Shown piece after piece: positions 21,111 through 32,560 of a stretch of DNA of 64,000 nucleotides. The stretch lies in contig NZ_FNBZ01000007.1 in assembly GCF_900102525.1 (NCBI RefSeq), positions 1 through 64,000 on the forward strand. Direction: 5' to 3'. This DNA comes from Allobosea robiniae. GTDB lineage: Bacteria; Pseudomonadota; Alphaproteobacteria; Rhizobiales; Beijerinckiaceae. Made by a program: the position numbers and the translations under genes. Position 1 is the first letter of the stretch; each line of letters begins with the position of its first letter. A model generated the notes under the pieces. The model was not told the origin of the DNA, made no database searches, and worked only from the letters and a program-made list of their open reading frames with translations.

Positions 21111-21965
21111 TCACCTTGCAGATGTCGCCTGAAGAAACGCGACGACATCGTTGAGGATGGGCGCCTGCCATTGCAGAAGCGTGGACAGCGCCGTGGCTGT
21201 GGTTGTATGGCCGAGCCCCTGATAGATCTTCAGCGAGATCGATCGCGCACCCGCCTTTCTGAGCTCTAGGGCAAGGCGCTCGCTGTTGCGGGGGAGCACC
21301 GTTGTGTCGGCGGATCCTGTCACCAGAAGGACCGGCGGGGCGTCGCGCCTTGCAAAGTTGATCGGCTGCGTCTGGGCGAGTTCGCGCGCGTTTCCAAACG
21401 CCGCCTTCGTCACGTCGATATCGAGCGGCAGAAAGTCGTAGGGGCCGGAGAGGCCTACGGTGGAGCGGATATCGCCGGCACGCATTCCCACGGCAGCAAG
21501 ATAACGCCGGTCCAGCGTCAGCATCATCGCGTTGTAGGCGCCCGCCGAATGCCCCATCAGGTGGATTGCCTTCGGGGAGCCACCGAAGCGGGCTATGTTA
21601 TCTCGGACGAAACGCAGCGCCAGCGCTCCATCCTCGATGAAGACCGGGAAGTGCACCTCAGGCACCAGCCGATAATCCGCGATCACCGTGACGAAGCCGC
21701 GCGCGGAAAGCGCTTCGCCGACGAAGGCATAGGTTTCCTTCGCGCCATTGGCCCATGAGCCGCCATAGATGAAGAAGACCACCGGCTTCCGCGCGCTGCC
21801 GCCACCCGAAGGCACGTAGATATCCATCCGTTGCCGGGGATGAGGACCATAGGCCACATCGCGAGCCCCCTCGGTCAGGCCGCCGGGGCGCAGGGCTGCG
21901 CATGCAGGAAGGGCCAGTCCGGCCAGCAGAGGCAGGATCGCGCGTCGGACAATTCGGATCGTCAT
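21111..21965 (-). CDS. Lipoprotein alpha/beta hydrolase (esterase/lipase)
   Basis: This 284-residue protein has a lipoprotein signal (LAGLALPAC, acylated Cys22). The hydrolase core belongs to the hormone-sensitive-lipase/carboxylesterase group: FFIYGGSWANG as oxyanion motif, HLMGHSAGAYN with the Ser nucleophile, and GLGHTTT with the His. It is probably tethered to a membrane facing the periplasm. A sigma-factor-type promoter (TGATCC-N17-GTATAG) lies just upstream, which places it in the ECF regulon of this region rather than in the LysR operon beside it. Confidence 0.88.
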   Translation of the reverse strand: MTIRIVRRAILPLLAGLALPACAALRPGGLTEGARDVAYGPHPRQRMDIYVPSGGGSARKPVVFFIYGGSWANGAKETYAFVGEALSARGFVTVIADYRLVPEVHFPVFIEDGALALRFVRDNIARFGGSPKAIHLMGHSAGAYNAMMLTLDRRYLAAVGMRAGDIRSTVGLSGPYDFLPLDIDVTKAAFGNARELAQTQPINFARRDAPPVLLVTGSADTTVLPRNSERLALELRKAGARSISLKIYQGLGHTTTATALSTLLQWQAPILNDVVAFLQATSAR

Positions 21966-21995
21966 CGTAGCCTGGGGCCGGAGAAGCGTCGCAAT

Positions 21996-22024
21996 CTATA
22001 CGCCTTAAGCGCTGCGGTGGATCA
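21996..22024 (-). promoter_or_regulatory. ECF-type promoter P1 (TGATCC-N17-GTATAG)
   Basis: Read on the minus strand, TGATCC (22024-22019), 17 bases, then GTATAG (22001-21996). It points at the lipoprotein hydrolase, whose ATG is 31 bases downstream. TGATCC is the -35 element known for RpoE-ChrR promoters in Rhodobacter. It is one of seven like sites between 21.9 and 31.8 kb. Confidence 0.7.
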
Positions 22025-22056
22025 GCGCCGCGGCCGCGCGATATCGACGGCGATAC

Positions 22057-22085
22057 TGAACCGAGCCGGCCCGCCGCACGTATCT
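22057..22085 (+). promoter_or_regulatory. ECF-type promoter P2 (TGAACC-N17-GTATCT)
   Basis: TGAACC (22057-22062), 17 bases, GTATCT (22080-22085), 25 bases before the DUF2177 start codon. It is divergent from P1. Five of six -35 bases and all six -10 bases equal those of the rpoE-like gene promoter. Confidence 0.65.
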
Positions 22086-22109
22086 CCTCGCAGAATCCTG
22101 GAGATCGCC

Positions 22110-22523
22110 ATGCGCTTCGTCGCCGGTTACATCGCCTTCATCGTCGCCTTCGGCATCTGCGACGCCATCTGGCTGGGCACGATGACGGCAAGGCTCTATC
22201 GGCCCGCGCTCGGCGATCTCATCGTCGAGCAGGTGCGCTACTGGCCGGCGGCGCTGTTCTATTTCGGTTTCCCGCTCGGGGTCGTCTATTTCGCATTGAT
22301 GCCCGCGCTGCGTGACGGCAACGCGGGCGCCGCATTGCTCAATGGCGCGCTCATCGGTCTGCTCGCCTATGCGACCTACGATCTGACGAACTACGCCACG
22401 CTGCGTCCCTGGACGCTGACGATCACGCTCGTCGATCTCGTCTACGGCACGGTCGTCGTCGGATTGTGCACATGGATCGCCTATGGCGTCGTCCGCCGGG
22501 CGGCCGACTGGGGCTGGTTCTAG
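22110..22523 (+). CDS. DUF2177 family membrane protein
   Basis: This 137-residue integral membrane protein has four predicted helices. DAIWLGTMTARLYRPALG near the first helix and ATYDLTNYATLRPW in the middle are DUF2177 hallmarks. The function is unknown, but in alphaproteobacteria such genes recur beside RpoE-ChrR, cyclopropane synthase and DUF1295 genes, as here. GGAG precedes the ATG at 22110. A motif-matched ECF promoter lies 25 bases upstream. It is transcribed divergently from the lipoprotein hydrolase. Confidence 0.88.
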   Translation: MRFVAGYIAFIVAFGICDAIWLGTMTARLYRPALGDLIVEQVRYWPAALFYFGFPLGVVYFALMPALRDGNAGAALLNGALIGLLAYATYDLTNYATLRPWTLTITLVDLVYGTVVVGLCTWIAYGVVRRAADWGWF

Positions 22524-22541
22524 CCCCAGTCGGCCAATCCG

Positions 22542-23564
22542 TCAGTTCGCGCGCAACCTGTAGTGATGAACGCCCCAGGCATCGCCGCCTTCATGGCCGA
22601 ACAGTCCGCTCGTGGCCAGGAAGAACAGCCGCCAGCGCCGACGCCAGAGCGACGCATCCGCACCATAGGTCTCGCGCAGGATCGGATCGATCTTCGCGAG
22701 GTTGCGATCGAAATTCGCCAGCCAGTCCTCTGCCGTCGCGCGATAGTGCTCGCCGCCCCAGCGCCATTCGGCCTCGACGGTGAAGAGATCGGGGAATTGG
22801 TGCACGAGCGTCGCGCTCGGCATCAGACCGCCTGTGAAGAAATGCTGCGCGATCCAGTCGCCCGTATCGGCGGTGTCGAAACGGTAGCAGCCCTGCCGAT
22901 GGGCGAAGACATGGATGAAGAGCCGGCCGTCCGGCTTCAGCCAGTCACGAACCCGCCCGAGCAGCTCGCGCCAGTTCGCCATGTGTTCGAACATTTCGAC
23001 GGATACGACGCGATCGAAGCGCTCCTCCGTGCCAAACTCGTTCATGTCGGCGGTGACGACGCGGAGATTGGAGAGATGACGGCGCTGCGCCTGCTCTTCG
23101 ATATAGGCGCGTTGCGAAGCCGAGTTTGAGACCGATACGATCCGCGCCAGCGGATAGCGCTCCGCCATCCACAGCGAGAGCGAACCCCAGCCGCAGCCGA
23201 GTTCGAGGATGTCCTGCCCATCGGCGAGATCGGCATGCTCCGCGGCCAGCTCCAGCGCCTTGTCTTCCGCCGCGGCCAGCGTGTCGCCGGGATCAGCGTA
23301 ATAGCAGCAGGAATACTTGCGCCGCGGGCCGAGCACCTGATCGAAGAAAGCGGCCGGCACCTCGTAATGCTGGGCATTCGCGACGTCGGTATGAACGGCT
23401 ATCGGAAATTCCGCCATGTCGCGGGCGAAGGCCGCGGCACCGGCCGATTGCGCTGCCAGCGAGCGCGCCGTGCGCCCGACCAGCGACGCGATCACCATGC
23501 GGCTGACGGCATCGGGTACGGGCAGCCCTTCGCCCCAGGTCGAGAGCCTCTGCATGATCGTCAT
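22542..23564 (-). CDS. Cyclopropane-fatty-acid-synthase-like methyltransferase (short form)
   Basis: This 340-residue SAM-dependent methyltransferase has the SAM loop ILELGCGWGSLSLWMAERY, then SVSNSASQRAYIE, VSVEMFEHM and LKPDGRLFIHVFAHR. It is more distant from E. coli Cfa than the 411-residue protein at 28943. It acts on unsaturated acyl chains of phospholipids or on a related lipid. Its ATG overlaps the stop of the DUF1295 gene (ATGA), and AGGAG lies upstream. It is the last gene of the rpoE-chrR-DUF1295 operon. A longer in-frame upstream extension is antisense-like and rejected. Confidence 0.88.
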   Translation of the reverse strand: MTIMQRLSTWGEGLPVPDAVSRMVIASLVGRTARSLAAQSAGAAAFARDMAEFPIAVHTDVANAQHYEVPAAFFDQVLGPRRKYSCCYYADPGDTLAAAEDKALELAAEHADLADGQDILELGCGWGSLSLWMAERYPLARIVSVSNSASQRAYIEEQAQRRHLSNLRVVTADMNEFGTEERFDRVVSVEMFEHMANWRELLGRVRDWLKPDGRLFIHVFAHRQGCYRFDTADTGDWIAQHFFTGGLMPSATLVHQFPDLFTVEAEWRWGGEHYRATAEDWLANFDRNLAKIDPILRETYGADASLWRRRWRLFFLATSGLFGHEGGDAWGVHHYRLRAN

Positions 23565-24364
23565 GGCGTCGCTCCTTTCGGCGGCAGCGGGATCAGGGCG
23601 CTGGTCCGGCGCTGGTAGTCGCGATAGGCATCGCCGTGCTTGGCGAGCATGTGCTCTTCCAGCGGGGGTATGCCGGAGATGCGGGTGAGCAGCAGCGTGA
23701 TGCAGGCCGGTGCCAGCAAGGCAAGCCAGCCCCAGGGGTAGCCGGTCGCGAGCGCGATCACGGGATAGGAGCACCAGAGCAGGCACTCGAAGAAGTAGTT
23801 CGGGTGCCGCGACCAGCGCCACAGGCCAGAGTCGCAGACGCCGCCAGCTCCCGAGCGTGCGAAGGTCCGCAATTGCCCATCGGCGATGGCGCCTCCCGCA
23901 AGGCCGGCGGCGAACACGGCGACACCGGTAAAATCCCGCCAACCCAGCGCTGGCGCTGGGCTATGTGCCGCGAGGACGATTCCCAATCCCAGGGGAATGC
24001 TGACCACCGCCTGCATCTGCAGCAGCCGGGCCAGTTGCTGCGGCGCAGCGCTTCCCCAGTCCCGCTTCAGCTTCGCATAGCGGGGATCTTCGGTGATGCC
24101 GGTCGTCCGTCGCGCGATATGCACGCCGAGCCGAAGCGCCCAGGCGAATGCGAGCCCGGCCACGACGAAGCGCCGTGACATTGGCCCCGCCCCGAAGGGC
24201 AGCAAAGCGCCGGCAATGCCCGTCAGGCCCAGTCCGAAAGTCCAGACCACATCGATCCAGCCGGAATTGCCGGTGCGGCGTTCGACCAGCGTCGCCAGGG
24301 CCATGAAAGCGGACATGGCCACGGCCATGAAGATAACAGCCGCGATGAAGGAGGCGATCGTCAA
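23561..24364 (-). CDS. DUF1295 membrane protein (steroid 5-alpha-reductase/ICMT-like)
   Basis: This protein of about 267 residues has several membrane helices and the C-terminal motif SRHPNYFFECLLW, typical of DUF1295 and isoprenylcysteine methyltransferase folds, where it binds NADPH or SAM. DUF1295 proteins are thought to reduce lipid double bonds. The likely start is the TTG at 24364, whose TTGA overlaps the chrR stop; an internal ATG 15 codons later is an alternative. It overlaps the methyltransferase gene by ATGA. Its operon place suggests a joint role in modifying membrane fatty acids under stress. Confidence 0.82.
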   Translation of the reverse strand: MTIASFIAAVIFMAVAMSAFMALATLVERRTGNSGWIDVVWTFGLGLTGIAGALLPFGAGPMSRRFVVAGLAFAWALRLGVHIARRTTGITEDPRYAKLKRDWGSAAPQQLARLLQMQAVVSIPLGLGIVLAAHSPAPALGWRDFTGVAVFAAGLAGGAIADGQLRTFARSGAGGVCDSGLWRWSRHPNYFFECLLWCSYPVIALATGYPWGWLALLAPACITLLLTRISGIPPLEEHMLAKHGDAYRDYQRRTSALIPLPPKGATP

Positions 24365-24987
24365 AACCGCACCAGCGGCTGCAGCAGCCGGCCGAGCCAG
24401 CCCTGCAACTGCACGCTCCCCGTCATCGCGACGATGCAGGTGCAGCCCTCGACGGGATCGACGCACGGCGTGTGATCGTGCTCGGTGTCCGCTTCGTCGA
24501 AATCCCCGGCCGCGTAGCGCCCGTATTCGTGTTCATAGGCACCGGCAAGGATCGTGGTCCATTCGACCCCCGTATGCTTGTGGTGCGGCAAGGCGATCCC
24601 CGGCCCGGCGCGCAGCATGAAGACGCGCGCGCCCGCACCGGGAACCTCGACGCGGCGCATGGCGATGCGGATGCCGATCGGGCGCCAGGGACCGAGGCCA
24701 TAGGGGTGCAGCACCTTCGGCATCCCGGTTTCGGACATCGGGACGGCTGCAGCCGGCCCTGGCTCGGCTCGTGCTGCGGTGGCCGGAGGATTTGGGCCGG
24801 AAGCCATCGGGATGGGCTCGACCGCATCCAGCAGTGCGCCTTGTACGGCCTCGAGTTCCCGCAAGCGGCGCCGGCTCTCCTGATCCGCCTCGATATGGCA
24901 GGCGACGACCAGTGCCAAGCCTTCGTCGAGCTGCCCTGCGGCGAAGGCGGTGAGCGTCTCGTCGGATGGGCGATGCCCGATGCTCAT
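24361..24987 (-). CDS. chrR: ChrR-type cupin anti-sigma factor
   Basis: This 208-residue protein has an N-terminal anti-sigma domain (about 1-90) and a C-terminal cupin (LPHHKHTGVEWTTILAGAYE, GDFDEAD, EHDHTPCVD). ChrR binds RpoE through a zinc-stabilised N-terminal domain and releases it on singlet oxygen. The zinc ligands of Rhodobacter ChrR are two His and Cys35/Cys38. Here His5 and His31 are present, but the Cys positions read Asp35 and Ser38, so zinc binding is doubtful. The ATG overlaps the sigma-factor stop (ATGA). It should hold the upstream sigma factor inactive. Confidence 0.88.
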   Translation of the reverse strand: MSIGHRPSDETLTAFAAGQLDEGLALVVACHIEADQESRRRLRELEAVQGALLDAVEPIPMASGPNPPATAARAEPGPAAAVPMSETGMPKVLHPYGLGPWRPIGIRIAMRRVEVPGAGARVFMLRAGPGIALPHHKHTGVEWTTILAGAYEHEYGRYAAGDFDEADTEHDHTPCVDPVEGCTCIVAMTGSVQLQGWLGRLLQPLVRF

Positions 24988-25526
24988 CGCAGATCCTCCA
25001 GCCGGCCGCGCAGATGCGACAGTGCCAGGCGCAGGCGGGATTTCACCGTGCCCAACGGGATGGCGAGGCGATCGGCGACATCCTGATGACTGAAGCCTTC
25101 GATGAAAGCGAGTTCGACCACGCGGTACTGGTCGGGTGAAAGCTGGGTCATCGCGGCCCGCACGCGCGCATCGCGTTCGGCGCCGGAGAGCATCGCATCG
25201 GGTTGTTCGGGGGCTTCTTCATCCAGGATCTCGTAAACTTGCGATAGCCGCGACCGGATCTCACGTCGGGCGATGTCGATGCGCAGGTTGCGCGCGATCG
25301 TTGCGATCCAGGTCGAGGCGCTTGCCTTCGCGGGATCGAACAGGGCTGCCTTGCGCCAGACGGTCAGGAGCGTTTCCTGCGCGACCTCCTCGGCCAGCTC
25401 CGCCGGGGCGCCGCCGCGCATCAGCAACCCTTTCACGCGCGGCGCGAAATGGTCGAACAGCGCGGCGAAAGCGGCCCGGTCCCCTGAGCGCGCAATGGCC
25501 GCAATCAGTCTGTTGGGGTCGAACAA
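24984..25526 (-). CDS. rpoE: RpoE-like ECF sigma factor
   Basis: This protein of about 180 residues has sigma regions 2 (FAALFDHFAPRVKGLLMRGG, ETLLTVWRKAALFDP, ASTWIATIARNLRID) and 4 (LSPDQYRVVELAFIEGFSHQ, DVADRLAIPLGTVKSRLRLA). Directly followed by chrR, it resembles the singlet-oxygen regulator RpoE. Longer frames reach an ATG at 25604, but that lies almost at the predicted transcription start of the TGATCC/GTATCT promoter. AAGGAGG at 25546-25540 stands 7 bases before an ATC and 13 before the TTG at 25526. I use the TTG; an ATC start at 25532 is possible. Confidence 0.85.
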   Translation of the reverse strand: MFDPNRLIAAIARSGDRAAFAALFDHFAPRVKGLLMRGGAPAELAEEVAQETLLTVWRKAALFDPAKASASTWIATIARNLRIDIARREIRSRLSQVYEILDEEAPEQPDAMLSGAERDARVRAAMTQLSPDQYRVVELAFIEGFSHQDVADRLAIPLGTVKSRLRLALSHLRGRLEDLR

Positions 25527-25609
25527 GACGATGAAACGACCTCCTTGAGCGCTGGCTCCCACCTCGCGCATGCCGTCGACAGTCAAGGCGAGAGCGGGGA
25601 CCATGTATG

Positions 25610-25638
25610 AGATACGCGGCCGGAACCGCTCCGGATCA
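25610..25638 (-). promoter_or_regulatory. ECF-type promoter P3 (TGATCC-N17-GTATCT)
   Basis: Minus strand: TGATCC (25638-25633), 17 bases, GTATCT (25615-25610), directly upstream of the rpoE-like gene. It implies autoregulation. The last 11 spacer bases (GTTCCGGCCGC) nearly equal those of P5. Confidence 0.72.
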
Positions 25639-25659
25639 CCGGGACGAGGCCGCCCGCCA

Positions 25660-26028
25660 TCACTCGGCGGCCTTCCAGTTCACGTCGCGGCAGATCAGGC
25701 GCCCGACGATGCAACCGCGCGTGGCGAGCGTACCCGGCGTCACTGTGATCGTCATCGAGTAGGTCCAGTCGCGCTTGGGATCGTAGGCGTTGCCCGAGAA
25801 CGTGCCGTCGGGCTGGCGGGCCAGCGTCATGACCAGCTTGTCGCCGGCTGCCTCGCCCTTGCTGGTGTCGCCGATCCAGAGATTGGTGGCGCAGATCTTG
25901 TCGCCGCAGGGCGCGATCCGCACGCGCGCATTGCCGTCGTCACGCAGCCATGTCCCGTCGAGATCGTTGGCGGCAGCGCTGTGGGCCGAAATAGCGACGA
26001 GGACGAGGACAAGCGGAAGGCGCGTCAT
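25660..26028 (-). CDS. DUF2147 family exported protein
   Basis: This 122-residue protein has a signal peptide (MTRLPLVLVLVAISAHSAAA) and the DUF2147 pattern GTWLRDDGNARVRIAPCG, CATNLWIG, a beta-rich middle and GRLICRDVNW. Four Cys remain in the mature part and may form disulphides. The biochemical role of DUF2147 is not known; members are periplasmic and beta-barrel-like. AAAGGACC precedes the ATG. It lies 30 bases after a membrane-protein gene that has an ECF-type promoter, so both are probably co-transcribed. Confidence 0.86.
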   Translation of the reverse strand: MTRLPLVLVLVAISAHSAAANDLDGTWLRDDGNARVRIAPCGDKICATNLWIGDTSKGEAAGDKLVMTLARQPDGTFSGNAYDPKRDWTYSMTITVTPGTLATRGCIVGRLICRDVNWKAAE

Positions 26029-26058
26029 GATGCGGTCCTTTCGGCGAATGCATCTCGT

Positions 26059-26658
26059 CTACGCTCCGGGAGTGCCGCCGGTTTCATCGGCGCGCGAATT
26101 TGTGTCGAGACGCCCGGCGAACAGCCATCCGATCAGGGCAGTCAGGGATGCCGCGCTCAGAAAATTAAGGCGCTGCAAGGCTGCGTATTCGTCGGGCCCG
26201 TAGAGATGTATCGGCGCCCCCAGGATGGCTGCCGGCAGCAGATAGGCGGCGAAGACCAGTGCCGCGAAGCCGAGAGCGAAGAGGCGCTCCGCGCGGCGAA
26301 ACAGCATCAGCGCCAGCATAAGGCAAGGAAACAGGAAGACCTCGACCCCTGAGCCTGGGCCAAAGGCGGCCCGGCAGAGCAACGTATTGCCGATGCCGGC
26401 GGCGAGGAGCAGCGCTCGCCCGAGCACGGTATTGCACCGCATGACGGCCGGCACGGCCCCGAAGAGCGGCGTCGACAGGAAGGTGACATAGGATGGTGTG
26501 ATGACGGGCGCGACCGCCCAATGGAGATAGAGCGGATAGAAGGGCTGGTTGGAGAGGATCACGAGCGCGACGGTATTCGCGATCGCCGCCCGCGGATCGG
26601 GATGCGCAGCATAGGCGCTGATCGCCGCGACCACTCGCTTCAGTCGGCTCATCGGCAT
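26059..26658 (-). CDS. Membrane protein of unknown function
   Basis: This 199-residue protein has about five hydrophobic helices (AIANTVALVILSNQPFYPLY, VTFLSTPLFGAVPAVM, ALLLAAGIGNTLLCRAAFG, EVFLFPCLMLALMLFRRAE, FALGFAALVFAAYLLPAAI). I do not recognise a family. The ATG at 26658 has GAGGGG at a good distance; an in-frame GTG at 26664 sits too close to it. An ECF-type promoter (TGACCC-N17-GTAAAC) lies about 35 bases upstream, and DUF2147 follows in the same direction. Confidence 0.75.
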   Translation of the reverse strand: MPMSRLKRVVAAISAYAAHPDPRAAIANTVALVILSNQPFYPLYLHWAVAPVITPSYVTFLSTPLFGAVPAVMRCNTVLGRALLLAAGIGNTLLCRAAFGPGSGVEVFLFPCLMLALMLFRRAERLFALGFAALVFAAYLLPAAILGAPIHLYGPDEYAALQRLNFLSAASLTALIGWLFAGRLDTNSRADETGGTPGA

Positions 26659-26692
26659 CGTCACCCCTCGCGGAAAGCCCCGGCCATTCTTC

Positions 26693-26721
26693 GTTTACGC
26701 AGGAGGGGCTGTGGCGGGTCA
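26693..26721 (-). promoter_or_regulatory. ECF-type promoter P4 (TGACCC-N17-GTAAAC)
   Basis: Minus strand: TGACCC (26721-26716), 17 bases, GTAAAC (26698-26693). It serves the membrane protein/DUF2147 pair and is the weakest -10 match of the set, though TAA is the core of the Rhodobacter RpoE -10 element. Confidence 0.5.
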
Positions 26722-26753
26722 CTCGGCCGGGGTGCTTTTGGTCGCGCGGCAGC

Positions 26754-26782
26754 AAATCCAGTCCGGTCCCGGCCGCGTATAC
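26754..26782 (+). promoter_or_regulatory. ECF-type promoter P5 (AAATCC-N17-GTATAC)
   Basis: AAATCC (26754-26759), 17 bases, GTATAC (26777-26782). Initiation 5-7 bases further on would fall at the ATG 26788, so the FAD oxidoreductase mRNA would be leaderless or begin translation at a later ATG (26833). Confidence 0.6.
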
Positions 26783-26787
26783 CCGTC

Positions 26788-28146
26788 ATGACAAACGAAA
26801 CAGCGACGACGGAGCGGGCTCAGGGCAAGGCGATGCGGATCGCCGTCATCGGTGCCGGCATATCCGGCCTCTCGGCGGCGTGGCTGCTTGGGCAAGCGCA
26901 TGACGTCGTGCTGTTCGAGGCTGCCCCTCGCCTCGGCGGTCACGCCAACACGGTTCGCGTGGCGGGTGCCGGCGGCGAAACGGCGGTCGATACCGGCTTC
27001 ATCGTCTACAACGAGGCGACCTATCCGAATTTCATCGCGCTGATGGAGCATCTTCGCGTCGCCACGCAGCCGACCGAAATGTCCTTCGCCGTATCGCTCG
27101 ATGGTGGCCGGCTCGAATATAGCGGCACCAGCGTCGCCGGCCTGTTCGCCCAGCGCAGCAATCTGGTGCGCCCGCGCTTCTGGGCGATGCTGCAAGATAT
27201 CACCCGCTTCTATCGGAACGCATCGAGGGACGCGCTTTCGGGTGGCGCGGCCGCCATCTCGCTCGGCGACTATCTTGCAGCCGGCGGTTACGGCGCCGCG
27301 TTCCGGGACGATCATCTCCTGCCGATGGCGGCAGCGATCTGGTCGGCCCCCTGCTCGGAGATCCTGTCCTATCCGGCCGCCGCCTTCCTGCGCTTCCATC
27401 ACAATCACGGCCTGCTCCAGCTCAGCGACCGGCCGGTCTGGCGCACCGTGACCGGCGGCAGCAGCGTCTATGTGCAGAAGCTGCGCACCGCCTTTTCGGG
27501 AGAAGTGAGGCTCGGCTCGCCGGTGAGGCAGGTTCGGCGCGGAACCGACGATGTCGTTCTGACGGGCGACGGTTGGAACGAGACCTTCGACCAGGTCGTC
27601 TTCGCCTCCCATGCCGACCAGACGCTTGCCATGCTGGCCGATCCCGACCAGGCCGAGGTCGAAACGCTCGGCGCGTTCCGCTATAGCCGCAACCGCGCCG
27701 TGCTGCATGGCGATGAAGCGCTGATGCCGAAGCGACGCCGCGCTTGGGCAAGCTGGAACCATATCGGCGACCGCGCCCGGCCGGACGCCGCCTGCGCGGT
27801 CACCTACTGGATGAACCGGCTGCAAGGCTTGCCGAACGAGCCGCCTCTCTTCGTCACGCTCAACCCGCCGGACACGCTGCGTGCGGACACAGTCCTCCAT
27901 GAGGATATCTATGATCATCCGCTCTTCGACGCGGCGGCTCTCGACGCGCAACAGCGCCTCTGGTGGCTTCAGGGCACACGTCGAAGCTGGTTTTGCGGTG
28001 CCTATGTCGGATCGGGCTTCCATGAGGACGGCCTGCAGGCCGGGCTCGCAGTGGCCGAGGAACTCGGCGGCGTTCGTCGGCCCTGGCGGGTTCGCAATGA
28101 GTCCGGGCGCATTCCAATCGGGCCGCGACTGGAGCAGGCCGCATGA
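26788..28146 (+). CDS. FAD-dependent oxidoreductase (amine-oxidase-like)
   Basis: This 452-residue flavoprotein has the dinucleotide loop IGAGISGLSA (residues 21-30), an FAD-binding Glu-Arg region (FEAAPRLGGHANTV) and the C-terminal GAYVGSGFHEDGLQAGLAVAE segment. It belongs to the NAD(P)/FAD-dependent group found next to cyclopropane synthase and DUF1365. In Rhodobacter, comparable RpoE-controlled flavoproteins take part in making modified fatty acids. The start may be 26788 (leaderless) or ATG 26833. It overlaps DUF1365 by ATGA. Confidence 0.88.
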   Translation: MTNETATTERAQGKAMRIAVIGAGISGLSAAWLLGQAHDVVLFEAAPRLGGHANTVRVAGAGGETAVDTGFIVYNEATYPNFIALMEHLRVATQPTEMSFAVSLDGGRLEYSGTSVAGLFAQRSNLVRPRFWAMLQDITRFYRNASRDALSGGAAAISLGDYLAAGGYGAAFRDDHLLPMAAAIWSAPCSEILSYPAAAFLRFHHNHGLLQLSDRPVWRTVTGGSSVYVQKLRTAFSGEVRLGSPVRQVRRGTDDVVLTGDGWNETFDQVVFASHADQTLAMLADPDQAEVETLGAFRYSRNRAVLHGDEALMPKRRRAWASWNHIGDRARPDAACAVTYWMNRLQGLPNEPPLFVTLNPPDTLRADTVLHEDIYDHPLFDAAALDAQQRLWWLQGTRRSWFCGAYVGSGFHEDGLQAGLAVAEELGGVRRPWRVRNESGRIPIGPRLEQAA

Positions 28147-28946
28147 CCTTGCAATCTGCCCTCTATGTCGGCCGTGTCAGGCACCATCGGTTCCGGCCCC
28201 GGCCGCATGCGCTGGCCTATCGCGTGTTCTGGATGCTGCTCGATCTCGACGAGATCGATCGGGTGTCGGCGAAGCTCCGCTTCTTTTCGCGCAACCGCTT
28301 CAATCTCTACGCTTTTCGCGACGCGGATTACGGGGATCGCAGCGGGCGGCCCCTGCGGCCGCAGATCGAAGAAACCCTGGCGAAAGCCGGGATCGCGCAT
28401 GATGGTGGTCCGATCCGCCTGCTGACCATGCCGCGCATTCTCGGCTACACGTTCAATCCGCTCAGCACCTATTTCTGCTGCCGCCGCGACGGCAGCCTCT
28501 GCGCCACCGTCTACGAGGTGCACAACACCTTTGGCGAGATTCATAGCTACGTGGCGCCTGCCGATAGTTCCGAAGGCGCGTTGAGGCAGGAGGCCGACAA
28601 GGTCTTCCACGTCTCGCCGTTCATGAATCTCGACATGCGCTACGCCTTCACGGTCACCCCGCCGGGAGAACGCGTCTCCGTCGCCATCGAGGGCAGCGAC
28701 ACGGATGGACGCCTGATCACCGCCGTATTGAGCGGCAAGCGAACGGAACTGAGTGATGTGGCCCTGTTGCGGCTGCTCGCGACGCATCCGCTGCTCACGC
28801 TGAAGATCACCGCCGCCATTCACTGGCATGCATTGCGGCTGCTGGCGAAGCGCATCCGCTGGCAGCCTCATCCCGCGCCGCCCGAGCACTCCTTCAGTCT
28901 CGGCAGAGCCGCGACAGCTCATGCGAAAGGACCTCAGCAGCCATGA
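28143..28946 (+). CDS. DUF1365 domain protein
   Basis: This 267-residue protein has the DUF1365 signatures VRHHRFRPRPHALAYRVFW at the start, TMPRILGYTFNPLSTYFC in the middle, VYEVHNTFGE and KVFHVSPFM. The family has no proven enzyme activity, but its genes nearly always sit between an FAD oxidoreductase and a cyclopropane-fatty-acid synthase. Both junctions here are ATGA overlaps (28143-28146 and 28943-28946), so the three products are probably made in fixed ratio and may form a lipid-modifying complex. Confidence 0.92.
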   Translation: MTLQSALYVGRVRHHRFRPRPHALAYRVFWMLLDLDEIDRVSAKLRFFSRNRFNLYAFRDADYGDRSGRPLRPQIEETLAKAGIAHDGGPIRLLTMPRILGYTFNPLSTYFCCRRDGSLCATVYEVHNTFGEIHSYVAPADSSEGALRQEADKVFHVSPFMNLDMRYAFTVTPPGERVSVAIEGSDTDGRLITAVLSGKRTELSDVALLRLLATHPLLTLKITAAIHWHALRLLAKRIRWQPHPAPPEHSFSLGRAATAHAKGPQQP

Positions 28947-30178
28947 GCCGGCCCGACGCGGAACAGCAATTTCGCATGCCCGAACAGGCGCTCTCCCTGC
29001 CAGGTGGTATCGGCCTGTCGCGCTGGTTCCTGCGCCGCGTGCTCTCCAGGATCGCCATCGGCCACCTGACGGTCTTCACACCGGATGGCGAGCGACTTTG
29101 CAGCGTGCCCGGCCTGCCGGGGCCGCAGGCGACGATGATCCTGAACAACTGGCGGTCGATGCGCCGCCTTTTGCTCGACGGCGATATCGGCCTGGCCGAA
29201 GCCTATCGCGACGGCGACCTCCATACGCCGGATCTCACGGCCTTGATCGAGCTCGGCGCGCGCAACGATGCGACCCTGCGCAAGCTGGTCTCGGGGGCCT
29301 GGCCGGCCCGTCTGCTCAACCGCCTGCGGCATGTCCTCAACGCCAATACGCGCCGCGGCAGCCGCCGTAACATCACGGCGCATTACGATCTCGGCAATGA
29401 TTTCTACGGCCACTGGCTCGATGCCAGCATGATGTATTCCTCGGCACTCTATGAAACGCCGACCGAGACGCTAGAGGCCGCTCAGCAGCGCCGGATGGAC
29501 CGGATCGTCGCCATGCTCGACCTTTCGGGCGGCGAGCATGTTCTGGAGATCGGCTGCGGCTGGGGAGCGCTGGCGGAACGGCTGGCGCGCGAGGGCTGCC
29601 GCGTGACGGCGATCACCTTGTCGCCGGCCCAGCTCGAAGCCGCACGACAGCGCGTTGCCGCCGCAGGCCTGTCCGAACGCGTCACCATCGAGCTCAAGGA
29701 TTATCGCGACATCGCCGGGCTGTTCGACCGCATCGTTTCAATCGAGATGATCGAGGCGGTCGGCCGCGCCTACTGGCCGTCATACTTCGATACCTTGAAC
29801 CGCTCGCTCAGGCCCGGCGGCCGTGTCGTCCTGCAGGCGATCACGATCGACGACGCGCTGTTCGAGAGCTACCAGCAGGGCAGCGATTTCATCCAGCGCT
29901 ACATCTTCCCCGGAGGTAGCCTGCCATCGGTTCCAATGCTCAAGAGCAGTGCCGAGGCTGCCGCTCTCGCCGTGGTCGAGCAGCTCGACTTCGGCGGCAG
30001 CTACGCCCTGACCCTGAAGGAGTGGCGCCGGCGCTTTCTCGAAAGCTGGGCTGAGATATTGCCGTTGGGGTTCGACGAGCCGTTTCGCCGGCTCTGGGAA
30101 TTCTATCTCTGCTACTGCGAAGCAGGCTTCCGCGCCCGGACGATCGACGTCAACCTGCTCGCCCTTCAAGGCCGCTGA
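28943..30178 (+). CDS. cfa: Cyclopropane-fatty-acyl-phospholipid synthase family protein
   Basis: This 411-residue protein has the Cfa layout: an N-terminal lipid-binding region (LTVFTPDGERL, DGDIGLAEAYRDGDL), then NITAHYDLGNDFYGHWLD, MMYSSALYETP, SAM loop VLEIGCGWGALAERLA, and IVSIEMIEAVG. C-terminal FIQRYIFPGGSLPS matches the catalytic bicarbonate-site region. It adds a methylene or methyl group from SAM to unsaturated acyl chains in the membrane. It is the third gene of the FAD oxidoreductase-DUF1365-cfa operon and the closer of two Cfa-like proteins here to the classical enzyme. Confidence 0.93.
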   Translation: MSRPDAEQQFRMPEQALSLPGGIGLSRWFLRRVLSRIAIGHLTVFTPDGERLCSVPGLPGPQATMILNNWRSMRRLLLDGDIGLAEAYRDGDLHTPDLTALIELGARNDATLRKLVSGAWPARLLNRLRHVLNANTRRGSRRNITAHYDLGNDFYGHWLDASMMYSSALYETPTETLEAAQQRRMDRIVAMLDLSGGEHVLEIGCGWGALAERLAREGCRVTAITLSPAQLEAARQRVAAAGLSERVTIELKDYRDIAGLFDRIVSIEMIEAVGRAYWPSYFDTLNRSLRPGGRVVLQAITIDDALFESYQQGSDFIQRYIFPGGSLPSVPMLKSSAEAAALAVVEQLDFGGSYALTLKEWRRRFLESWAEILPLGFDEPFRRLWEFYLCYCEAGFRARTIDVNLLALQGR

Positions 30179-30205
30179 GAGGCGCGGCGTTCCCCGCCGC
30201 ACCCT

Positions 30206-30313
30206 TCTAGAGCATTTTCGAGTGAAGTGGATACCGGTTCGCGTCAAGAAAATGCGATAAAACAAAGGCCTAGAGCAATTTCGCGACTCAGGAAATGGCG
30301 GAATTGCTTTAGA
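30206..30313. repeat. Rhizobiales-type palindromic intergenic repeat
   Basis: The stretch contains TCTAGAGCATTTTCGAGTGA, GTGGATACCGGTTCGCGTCA and AGAAAATGCGATAAAAC, then a hairpin with GCAATT (30274-30279) and AATTGC (30302-30307). I have seen nearly the same string in many Rhizobiales genomes as a dispersed element. It lies between the convergent ends of cfa and the anti-sigma gene and probably helps to terminate both transcripts. Confidence 0.55.
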
Positions 30314-31031
30314 GGCGCCGCGCAGTCAGCCCCTTGGCGACGATCGGGCCGGTCGGGCGTCCGGTTGGCGAACCGGCGGCGGGTTCCACCGTGATCTCGA
30401 AGAGCTGATCGGCCCCGAGCGGCAGGTTGTCCAAGCGCAGCGGCACGGCCCGGGCTCTGTCGATGAGGCCGACCGAGCGCGGCCCGGTGGCACGATCCCA
30501 TAGCGTCCAGATTTCCAGCGCACGGCCCTGCGGCACGGCGATATCCTGAAGCGGCAGCAATTCGACGCGCCCGTCGGCGAACGTATTCACAACGGCGGCG
30601 GCGACATTGGTCTCAGTCAGCAGAACCGCGACCATCACGGGCTGACGACGCGCACGATCGAGGGCAGCGACGAGCGCGAAGGCGAGCAGGAGCGCTGCGG
30701 CAAGACTGGCCAACGCGGTCCCGCGCCAAAGCCAAAGGCTCTCCCACCATTGCGAGAGCCGCGCGCCACGCGCCGGCTGCGAAGCCGCGGCCTGGCTTGC
30801 CGCGGGAGCTTGGTCGAGGCCGCTCTCGATGCTCCGCCAGAGTCCTGTCGATGGCTCGATCGCCCGGGCGGTGGCATCGATCGGCGTCAGCCGCGCCTGC
30901 CAGCGAGCGACTGCGGCATCCAGTTTCGCGTCACCCGCCATCTGCCTCTCGAACGCCTCCTTCTCGGCGCCGTCGAGCAGGCCCAGCACATATTCTCCCG
31001 CAACAATCTCGCGATCCAGTTCCGGCGTCAT
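30309..31031 (-). CDS. RskA-type membrane anti-sigma factor
   Basis: This 240-residue protein has an N-terminal anti-sigma domain (EIVAGEYVLGLLDGAEKEAF, VARWQARL), one membrane helix (ALASLAAALLLAFALVAAL, near residue 115) and a periplasmic RskA-like domain (RALEIWTLWDRATGPRSVGL, LFEITVEPAAGSP). Such proteins hold a sigma factor at the membrane until cleaved or modified. The ATG 31031 overlaps the sigma-factor stop (ATGA) and has AAGGAG upstream. It is the partner of the sigma factor at 31028-31588. Confidence 0.88.
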   Translation of the reverse strand: MTPELDREIVAGEYVLGLLDGAEKEAFERQMAGDAKLDAAVARWQARLTPIDATARAIEPSTGLWRSIESGLDQAPAASQAAASQPARGARLSQWWESLWLWRGTALASLAAALLLAFALVAALDRARRQPVMVAVLLTETNVAAAVVNTFADGRVELLPLQDIAVPQGRALEIWTLWDRATGPRSVGLIDRARAVPLRLDNLPLGADQLFEITVEPAAGSPTGRPTGPIVAKGLTARRL

Positions 31032-31588
31032 CCGAGGCACTCCTTGAGTGCGATCAGCGAACGGCGGATCCATGATTTCACCGTCCCGAGCGGTATGCCG
31101 AGCTTGCCGGCGATCTCGCCATGGCTCAGCCCCTGCACGAAGGCGAGCAGCACCATCCCGCGCCGCGGAGCCGACAAGGTCTCCAGACAGCCGCGCAAGG
31201 CCTTGGCATCGGAGAGCTTCGCCATCACGGTCTCGGGATCGTCCTCCTCGCTCGCGGCCTCCTGCCCAATCGGGCTTTCATCTGTCTCCATCCGCCGCTC
31301 GTCACGCAGGATCGACAGCGTGCGGTTGCGCAGGATGGCGTAGATCCAGGTTAAGCCCGAACCGCGCTGCGGATCGAAGCGTCCCGCATGCCGCCAGATC
31401 AGGATGAAACTGTCCTGCACCGCTTCCTCCGCCAGGGCGCGGCGCTTCAGCATGCGCTGCGCCACACCGATCATACGCGGGCACTCCTGGTCGTAGATGC
31501 GCCGGAGTGCGTTTTTATCGCCCCCGGCACAGGCCGCCAGCGCCTGCTCGATGCCTGCTCCATGCGATTGCGCGGCATTGACGGCCAT
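31028..31588 (-). CDS. ECF sigma factor (SigK/RpoE-like)
   Basis: This 186-residue sigma-70 family factor has region 2 (RRIYDQECPRMIGVAQRMLK, AVQDSFILIWRHAGRFDP, GLTWIYAILRNRTLSILR) and region 4 (APRRGMVLLAFVQGLSHGEI, AGKLGIPLGTVKSWIRRSL). It is a different subgroup from the ChrR-linked factor and is paired with an RskA-like anti-sigma. A GCATCC-N17-GTATCC promoter lies 47 bases upstream, suggesting autoregulation or control by the other sigma factor. It diverges from the DUF4394 gene. Confidence 0.9.
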   Translation of the reverse strand: MAVNAAQSHGAGIEQALAACAGGDKNALRRIYDQECPRMIGVAQRMLKRRALAEEAVQDSFILIWRHAGRFDPQRGSGLTWIYAILRNRTLSILRDERRMETDESPIGQEAASEEDDPETVMAKLSDAKALRGCLETLSAPRRGMVLLAFVQGLSHGEIAGKLGIPLGTVKSWIRRSLIALKECLG

Positions 31589-31634
31589 GCGGAATCCCTA
31601 AGCTCGGCTGCCCCGGTTGGACGGCACGACGGGA

Positions 31635-31663
31635 GGATACGCTGCCCGCGTCGCGATGGATGC
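31635..31663 (-). promoter_or_regulatory. ECF-type promoter P6 (GCATCC-N17-GTATCC)
   Basis: Minus strand: GCATCC (31663-31658), 17 bases, GTATCC (31640-31635), serving the second sigma/anti-sigma operon with a 5' leader of about 40 bases. The -35 is the same as in the divergent P7. Confidence 0.65.
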
Positions 31664-31689
31664 ACCCCGGCGGCTTTATTTTTTCGAGC

Positions 31690-31718
31690 GCATCCAATGC
31701 CTTGCCTCGGCTCTATCC
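31690..31718 (+). promoter_or_regulatory. ECF-type promoter P7 (GCATCC-N17-CTATCC)
   Basis: GCATCC (31690-31695), 17 bases, CTATCC (31713-31718), about 60 bases before the DUF4394 start codon. It is back to back with P6, 26 bases apart. Confidence 0.6.
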
Positions 31719-31777
31719 GGCATGAGCGCCGCCAGCAGATATGCATGCCGCGGCGCCTGACAGAACCGGAGGACACC

Positions 31778-32560
31778 ATGACCAAGACGATCCGTTTCGC
31801 CCTCGTCGTTTCAACGTTTCTCGGCAGCGGGATCGCCGCGCAGGCCGCCATGCTCGCGGCTCTCACCGGCGACGACACGCTCACCATGGTCGATACCGCG
31901 ACCCTCAAGGCCAGCAAGCAGATGAAGGTCACCGGCCTTGCCGGCAAGATCGCTGGCATCGACGTCAGACCGGCCGACGGCATGCTCTACGCGCTCGCGG
32001 TCGACGGCGCGATCTATACGATCGACAAGACGGGCAAGGCGACGATGAAGTCGAAGATGGACACCGTGCTCCCTGCCGGCGCCCGGGCCACGGTCGATTT
32101 CAATCCGGCCGCCGACCGGCTCCGCGTGATCGGCTCCGACGGCACCAACCTGCGGGTCAATGTCGATGACGGCAAGACCACGGTCGACGGTAAGCTGAAA
32201 TTCGCCGAGACCGACATGCACAAGGGCGAGGTGCCCATGATCGTAGCCGGCGCCTACACCAACTCCGTCAAGGGTACGAAGGAGACGGCGCTCTACGACA
32301 TCGACGGCAAGATCGGCGGCCTGATCAAGCAGGCGCCGCCCAATGACGGCGTTCTCGGCGCGATCGGCAAGCTCGGCGTCATGCCGAAAACGATCGCCTT
32401 CGATGTCGAGACAGCGGGCGACGGGACCAACACTGGCTGGCTGCTCGCCGACGGCGCCCTGCACAAGGTTGATCTCGCCACCGGCAAGGCGACTGCGGTG
32501 GGCAAGGTTGCTGGTCTGAGCGCAGCCGCGAGGGACATCGCCGTCCTTCCGGCGATGTAG
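31778..32560 (+). CDS. DUF4394 family exported protein
   Basis: This 260-residue protein has a signal peptide (TKTIRFALVVSTFLGSGIA, cleavage near AQA) and a beta-propeller-like DUF4394 domain: LAALTGDDTLTMVDTATL, IDVRPADGMLYAL, VDFNPAADRLRVIGSDGTNL and GWLLADGALHKVDLATG. The family is secreted or periplasmic and without known activity; it occurs next to ECF sigma/anti-sigma pairs as a likely target. GGAGGAC precedes the ATG at 31778. The ECF-type promoter P7 lies upstream. The 161 bases after it hold no feature I can support. Confidence 0.9.
   Translation: MTKTIRFALVVSTFLGSGIAAQAAMLAALTGDDTLTMVDTATLKASKQMKVTGLAGKIAGIDVRPADGMLYALAVDGAIYTIDKTGKATMKSKMDTVLPAGARATVDFNPAADRLRVIGSDGTNLRVNVDDGKTTVDGKLKFAETDMHKGEVPMIVAGAYTNSVKGTKETALYDIDGKIGGLIKQAPPNDGVLGAIGKLGVMPKTIAFDVETAGDGTNTGWLLADGALHKVDLATGKATAVGKVAGLSAAARDIAVLPAM

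Follow-up and report, generated by a model that had tools for sequence, protein, structure and literature searches.

The DNA analysed here is a 64,000-nt window of the 5.28-Mb genome of Allobosea robiniae (contig NZ_FNBZ01000007.1, positions 1 to 64,000), whose closest named relatives by the DUF4394 protein belong to Bosea. Its gene block at 21111-32560 very probably consists of two abutting sigma/anti-sigma modules, forming two regulons rather than one. In this layout, which is judged as a whole, module 1 (21111-30178) would be an RpoE-ChrR regulon of extracytoplasmic function (ECF) group ECF11 with five RpoE-type promoters, and module 2 (30309-32560) a SigK/RskA-type divergent unit (divergon), in which a second sigma factor, Sig2, faces the gene for DUF4394 across two Sig2-type promoters. 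A sequence-only reading of the same DNA had proposed a single compact, self-contained regulon. The block is indeed compact, while self-containment holds for strict motif matches only, and the single regulon is not borne out, as the last two sites differ from the others in their -35 element (GCATCC), their sigma factor and the recognition helix of that factor, and the divergon mostly occurs without the RpoE block in its flanks.

Seven promoter sites and the question of chance

Seven sites of 29 nt, each with exactly 17 nt between its two hexamers, were found at the positions and on the strands given by the sequence-only reading, and one stands in front of every transcription unit of the block (7/7). 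Five are of the RpoE type: TGATCC-N17-GTATAG before the esterase gene (21996-22024, minus strand), TGAACC-N17-GTATCT before DUF2177 (22057-22085, plus), TGATCC-N17-GTATCT before rpoE-chrR-DUF1295-cfa1 (25610-25638, minus), TGACCC-N17-GTAAAC before the membrane protein-DUF2147 unit (26693-26721, minus) and AAATCC-N17-GTATAC before the ufaD-like operon FAD-DUF1365-cfa2 (26754-26782, plus), all packed within about 4.8 kb. The other two are of the Sig2 type, namely GCATCC-N17-GTATCC before sig2-rskA (31635-31663, minus) and GCATCC-N17-CTATCC before DUF4394 (31690-31718, plus). Because a C directly precedes the -10 element in six of the seven sites, the motif can also be read with N16-CGTA, and the five RpoE-type sites (TGATCC, TGAACC, TGACCC or AAATCC, followed by N16-CGTA) match the consensus published for RpoE-ChrR (ECF11) promoters. 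In Pseudomonas syringae this consensus is TGATCC-N16-CGTA (PMC5507510; this and all papers below are cited from excerpts), and in Shewanella the mapped starts follow TGATCC/CGTATT and TGATCC/CGTAAT (PMC4336711), which upholds the earlier description of TGATCC as a documented -35 element of such promoters.

The evidence for the sites is their placement and conservation, not their density. Across the genome, the bare consensus shows no enrichment at the correct spacing, which accounts for five of 50 matches over 16 spacers for TGATCC-N17-GTAT and five of 66 for TGATCC-N16-CGTA, and weaker matches to a scoring matrix show no excess in the window at the 17-nt spacer (22 at >=8 bits, compared with 6-30 at the other 14 spacers); the genome-wide counts weigh against the two-module reading. 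Together with the 31 genome matches obtained when one mismatch is allowed, many of them in open frames (stop-to-stop frames, by which gene starts are not settled), the missing excess of the bare consensus would suit the view that the seven sites arose by chance in a GC-rich sequence and were given weight only in hindsight. This view is very improbable, since it is largely refuted by the matrix, by conservation and by the spacing at the divergons. The matrix was built from 21 hand-picked sites at ten distant loci of other genomes (L128-L137), upstream of rpoE, FAD, DUF2177 and DUF2147 genes; these had been found by their likeness to the consensus and all begin TGATCC. Among all window positions on both strands, it ranks the five RpoE-type sites 1 (esterase), 2 (rpoE), 3 (membrane protein), 8 (DUF2177) and 11 (ufaD-like operon). 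In the near relatives (the window, L044, L046, L047, L091 and L125-L127), the motif columns are 0.85-1.00 identical versus 0.37-0.65 for the spacers, and across 48 divergons the spacing of the Sig2-type sites peaks at 17-18 nt. The earlier claim that the sites are hard to explain by chance stands.

Stricter patterns gave small numbers. WRAHCC-N16-CGTAWMB has 10 matches in the genome, five of which are the RpoE-type sites, while its reversed control has six; the count is partly circular because the pattern was drawn from those five sites. Four of the other five matches lie inside open frames, as judged by GC content at third codon positions rather than by annotation, while the fifth (L035) does not point at a gene. 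Among the in-frame matches, that of L150 is close to where its frame ends, and a new frame begins 119 nt further on, so that it may still be a promoter. The only two genome matches to GCATCC-N17-STATCC lie in the gap between sig2 and DUF4394, whereas spacers 10-25 together give 27, and GCATCC-N12-22-STATCC gave 208 matches in 13 further genomes, against 149 for the reversed pattern (spacers pooled).

Sig2, DUF4394 and the case for a second regulon

The assignment of sigma factors to sites is inferred from motifs, conservation and layout. Among 51 named DUF4394 loci (flanks of up to 10 kb, shorter at contig ends), Sig2-RskA lies divergently beside DUF4394 in 47, Sig2 being not found in L080, L082, L088 and L091, while the RpoE block is within the flanks of only four (L044, L046, L047 and L091). 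With the window included, GCATCC is present on the DUF4394 side of 45 and on the sigma side of 46 of 48 intergenic regions, whereas letter shuffles of the DUF4394-side strands contain it in 3.55 regions on average and in nine at most. On the sigma side, a following [GC]TA stands at spacer 17 in 41 regions, at spacer 18 in four and at any other spacer of 8-26 in four; the corresponding counts for the DUF4394 side are 21, six and one. The exact hexamer is missing on the DUF4394 side of L057, L076 and L078 and on the sigma side of L078 and L092, which speaks against the two-module reading. DUF4394 was detected in 25 of 299 sampled genomes of the phylum; within 1.5-kb flanks, Sig2 is adjacent in 8/8 of those from the same order (in the same direction in one, G049), in 1/8 of the other genomes of the class and in 0/9 of the rest. 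No ChrR match was found in G049 or G325, and in G325 both promoters of the divergon carry GCATCC.

Sig2 (31028-31588, minus strand) was identified by Pfam and by its match to 4nqw_A (5.1e-21), and its Cys134 and Cys184 align with C133 and C183 of SigK. Both cysteines are present in 48 of 49 Sig2 rows, one of which, a best hit, may be a paralogue, and a published survey reports this pair for 94% of ECF18 and 56% of ECF19, compared with under 2% elsewhere among the families (PMC7509140). The adjacent gene (30309-31031, minus strand) encodes an RskA-type anti-sigma factor with an RskA_C domain (PF10099, 6.2e-19 for a longer frame to 31073) and one transmembrane-like stretch, as expected for SigK-RskA (ECF18/19) systems, and no Hx3Cx2C motif was found in it or in 48 orthologues. 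The structure-sequence matches of Sig2 are tied (SigK 5.1e-21, RpoE 7.1e-21), which leaves its ECF group undecided by sequence. As the neighbouring target is DUF4394 rather than an MPT83-type gene, the system is named SigK/RskA-type here and not a member of the mpt83-sigK-rskA cassette.

Alternatively, RpoE, or both sigma factors equally, could read all seven promoters as one regulon. The same spacing and a similar -10 element in all seven sites would agree with this, as would the 36% identity of Sig2 and RpoE in the window. In P. syringae, PSPTO_4231 is listed as a candidate target of RpoE although its site reads GCATCC-N16-CGTA (PMC5507510); this case speaks against a clean separation of the two regulons and makes cross-reading by the two sigma factors possible. 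Nevertheless, a single regulon is unlikely, since Sig2 divergons retain GCATCC even when their flanks hold no RpoE block, and it stands on both sides of the G325 divergon, where no ChrR match was found, while the -35 element never begins with GC in 36 near-relative RpoE sites. In addition, the helix that reads the -35 element is KSWIRRSL in Sig2 and KSRLRLAL in RpoE; W173 is present in 47/49 and R176 in 48/49 Sig2 rows, while the equivalent positions of 17 RpoE rows hold R in 16 (one gap) and L in 14 (three gaps), a difference that fits separate -35 preferences. Among the literature matches listed for GCATCC with an ECF sigma/anti-sigma pair, the Sinorhizobium meliloti case that was followed up turned out to be a -10 element.

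The GCATCC hexamers of the two divergent Sig2-type sites stand back to back, and the gap between them measures 25-26 nt in 34 of the 48 regions (the pair nearest 26 was taken where several were possible, and four regions have no pair). In the window, the gap at 31664-31689 contains the A/T tract TTTATTTTTT (31675-31684). Where the paired hexamers are separated by 15-50 nt (44 divergons), the intergenic region has its longest A/T run between them in 43 cases, versus 6.2 expected by length, and its distance to the DUF4394-side hexamer is 5-6 nt in 30 of these 43; such counts are not independent because many loci are close relatives. A proximal UP element is an A/T tract just upstream of the -35 element, and from this likeness in position the tract is probably a UP-type element serving both promoters. 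It might also be bound by a nucleoid protein or a regulator, or simply reflect the A/T richness of promoters, which is somewhat less likely, though still a serious possibility, given that A/T-rich promoters are often retained in GC-rich genomes. These alternatives are harder to reconcile with the position of the run in 43 of 44 divergons, many of them closely related, and with the RpoE divergent pairs of six genomes, in which no such tract was found. Helical phasing of the -35/-35 gaps was considered for 12 distant divergons and rejected (p 0.11-0.28).

The product of the second Sig2-type promoter is the DUF4394 protein (31778-32560, plus strand; Pfam 5.2e-69). Its structural model (predicted local distance difference test score, pLDDT, 85) has a beta-propeller fold, and an N-terminal hydrophobic stretch suggests that it is exported. 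The best fold matches of the model are tied between 9ya3_K (Z 17.0, root-mean-square deviation 3.2, 198 aligned) and 2h2u_B, a calcium-activated nucleotidase (Z 16.9, 3.2, 225 aligned), and no enzyme function is, therefore, claimed; an envelope sensor or binding protein would be our guess. A full-text search of one collection of papers returned none on DUF4394, nor on DUF4394 with a sigma factor, although the ECF re-classification may list this ECF group. In the proposed mechanism, the membrane-bound RskA-like protein would hold Sig2 until an envelope signal causes its release, and Sig2 would then act at the two back-to-back GCATCC-N17-GTA/CTA promoters, driving its own operon and the predicted exported propeller.

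The RpoE-ChrR module and its zinc-ligand variant

The first module has the gene content of an ECF11 system. RpoE (24984-25604, minus strand) has R. sphaeroides RpoE as its best sequence match in the PDB (2q1z_A, 3.1e-39), and its true start is probably downstream of 25604. It is adjacent to ChrR (24361-24987, minus; TIGR02451 149 bits against a cut-off of 124.5; 2z2s_B 4.4e-25), whose cupin-like domain keeps its zinc ligands, and the promoter stands before rpoE and the core genes; the deviations from TGATCC at the ufaD-like operon (AAATCC) and at DUF2177 (TGAACC) are found within this group of promoters. The operon continues with a DUF1295 membrane protein (23561-24364, minus; Pfam 2e-59) and a CMAS-like methyltransferase, cfa-like 1 (22542-23564, minus; Pfam 2.3e-41). 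On the plus strand lie the DUF2177 membrane protein (22110-22523; Pfam 2.9e-39) and the operon of a FAD amine-oxidase-like protein (26788-28146, the start of which may be 26833; Pfam 2.7e-19), a DUF1365 protein (28143-28946; Pfam 1.3e-82) and the CMAS methyltransferase cfa-like 2 (28943-30178; Pfam 1.7e-82), which resemble UfaD, UfaO and UfaM by family and order only (PMC7380195). The -10 elements of rpoE and the ufaD-like operon end 5 nt before the first ATG; leaderless mRNAs were considered and rejected, as wrong start calls are likelier; by eye, the FAD motif starts from the downstream ATG at 26833.

Two further units of the minus strand are likely new members of the RpoE regulon, as the sequence-only reading had proposed, while DUF4394, which it had also counted, is better assigned to Sig2. 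One is the gene of a lipoprotein alpha/beta-hydrolase (21111-21965; Pfam BD-FAE 5e-30, esterase structure matches, lipobox-like LPAC by eye), and the other pairs a membrane protein (26059-26664; hydrophobic stretches, no Pfam or NCBIfam family match) with a DUF2147 protein (25660-26028; Pfam 2.1e-14). A weak relative of this membrane protein was seen downstream of cfa1 in L137. The esterase gene was found in seven loci, window included, and in six of them (besides the window L044, L046, L047, L091 and L126) a site occupies the equivalent position, in some cases weaker (AAATCC, AGATCC or CGATCC); the membrane protein-DUF2147 unit has its site in six loci. A TGATCC-N17 site lies upstream of rpoE in 14 of 16 loci of other genomes, and AAATCC is kept before the ufaD-like operon in 8/8 near relatives, window included. 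The -35 elements of the two divergent RpoE-type pairs are 32 nt apart (22025-22056 and 26722-26753) in the window, L044, L046, L047 and L091, and 27 and 32 nt apart in L126. In the window and these four loci the spacing is exactly 32 nt even though the stretch separating the esterase site from the DUF2177 site varies in sequence.

These assignments have their exceptions. No good site was found upstream of rpoE in L134 and L136, nor of DUF2177 in L128 and L134. The L128 esterase lacks its own site and sits between chrR and DUF1295 in the rpoE-chrR operon. The L127 membrane protein is without a good site, and DUF2147 carries its own there, which is also the case in L135 and L136. In L125, neither DUF2147 nor the membrane protein unit has one. 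Moreover, in two distant Sig2 divergons (L084 at 10930 and L078 at 2951), a DUF2147 gene lies just downstream of DUF4394, so that DUF2147 need not be an RpoE gene everywhere, hinting that it can belong to either regulon.

The ChrR protein of this module departs from the known one. In R. sphaeroides, the anti-sigma domain of ChrR binds zinc via H6, H31, C35 and C38, and this zinc is required for RpoE inhibition (PMC6852236). At these positions the window ChrR has R, H, D and S, and three of the four ligands (H6, C35 and C38) are replaced, which is at odds with an ordinary RpoE-ChrR switch. The same four residues are found in six of seven near orthologues, the seventh (L125) having E for C35, while the cupin zinc ligands (equivalents of H141/H143/E147/H177) are kept in the window and in all seven. 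Among 13 RpoE-adjacent ChrR proteins of a family sample, seven have all four ligands, four (the window and three near relatives) have R-H-D/E-S and two are otherwise reduced (L107 and L108). Both cysteines are absent from another 16 ChrR-like proteins, which have no RpoE match beside them, and one cut-off locus (L106) was unreadable. The window ChrR was not filed as a ZAS protein because these ligands are missing, and anti-sigma groups with both zinc and non-zinc members have been described before (PMC7406223). What makes the loss notable is the link of this ChrR to RpoE, yet zinc-free relatives are common. An AlphaFold model of ChrR from five close sequences (pLDDT 32) was not used.

By analogy with published relatives, singlet oxygen or organic peroxide would free RpoE from ChrR, and free RpoE would transcribe from the five TGATCC-like/N16/CGTA promoters, raising the levels of RpoE-ChrR, of furan-fatty-acid enzymes of the UfaD-UfaO-UfaM kind and of other lipid and membrane proteins. 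In this lineage, RpoE may also drive the lipoprotein esterase and the membrane protein-DUF2147 pair.

Relation to known systems

The singlet-oxygen switch of RpoE is well known, while a switch facing DUF4394 is little studied. For the former, the block probably enlarges a known regulon by the esterase gene and the membrane protein-DUF2147 pair; for the latter, it gives a domain of unknown function a context of sigma factor, promoter and predicted export. The role of the anti-sigma-domain zinc in the singlet-oxygen response was called unknown in a review (PMC6852236), and the natural ChrR variant would make this question directly testable: if the system still responds, singlet oxygen must be sensed by something other than this zinc. 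What may be new overall, put forward tentatively, is a SigK/RskA-type divergon shared among Hyphomicrobiales, with a single A/T tract between its two GCATCC promoters that drives the sigma operon as well as DUF4394, and with a propeller that perhaps feeds back on RskA in the periplasm, next to an RpoE-linked ChrR without the anti-sigma-domain zinc site.

RSP1090 of R. sphaeroides is presumably a DUF1365 gene. The RpoE-ChrR systems (ECF11) of R. sphaeroides, Shewanella and P. syringae share with the first module the homologous sigma and anti-sigma factors, the TGATCC-N16-CGTA promoters and the site before rpoE-chrR (PMC6852236, PMC5507510, PMC4336711), and that of R. sphaeroides also the FAD oxidoreductase (RSP1091/UfaD), a gene at the RSP1090/UfaO position and a cfa-like methyltransferase (RSP2144/UfaM) (PMC7380195). 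The P. syringae targets include an esterase/lipase-family gene, PSPTO_4843, the likeness of which to the window esterase is by this description only (PMC5507510). Unlike these systems, the block has five sites in about 4.8 kb, includes the esterase and the membrane protein-DUF2147 unit, and its ChrR anti-sigma domain is without the H6, C35 and C38 ligands. With SigK-RskA (ECF18/19) of Mycobacterium and Yersinia, the second module shares the two signature cysteines, the adjacent RskA_C anti-sigma factor and a neighbouring exported target (PMC7509140). It differs from SigK-RskA with mpt83 in that the target is a DUF4394 beta-propeller instead of an MPT83-type protein and is divergent, with back-to-back promoters, and in its -35 element, GCATCC. 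The SigK -35 element is CCATCC. Finally, UP elements are likewise A/T tracts just upstream of the -35 element, whereas here one putative tract would be common to two divergent ECF promoters.

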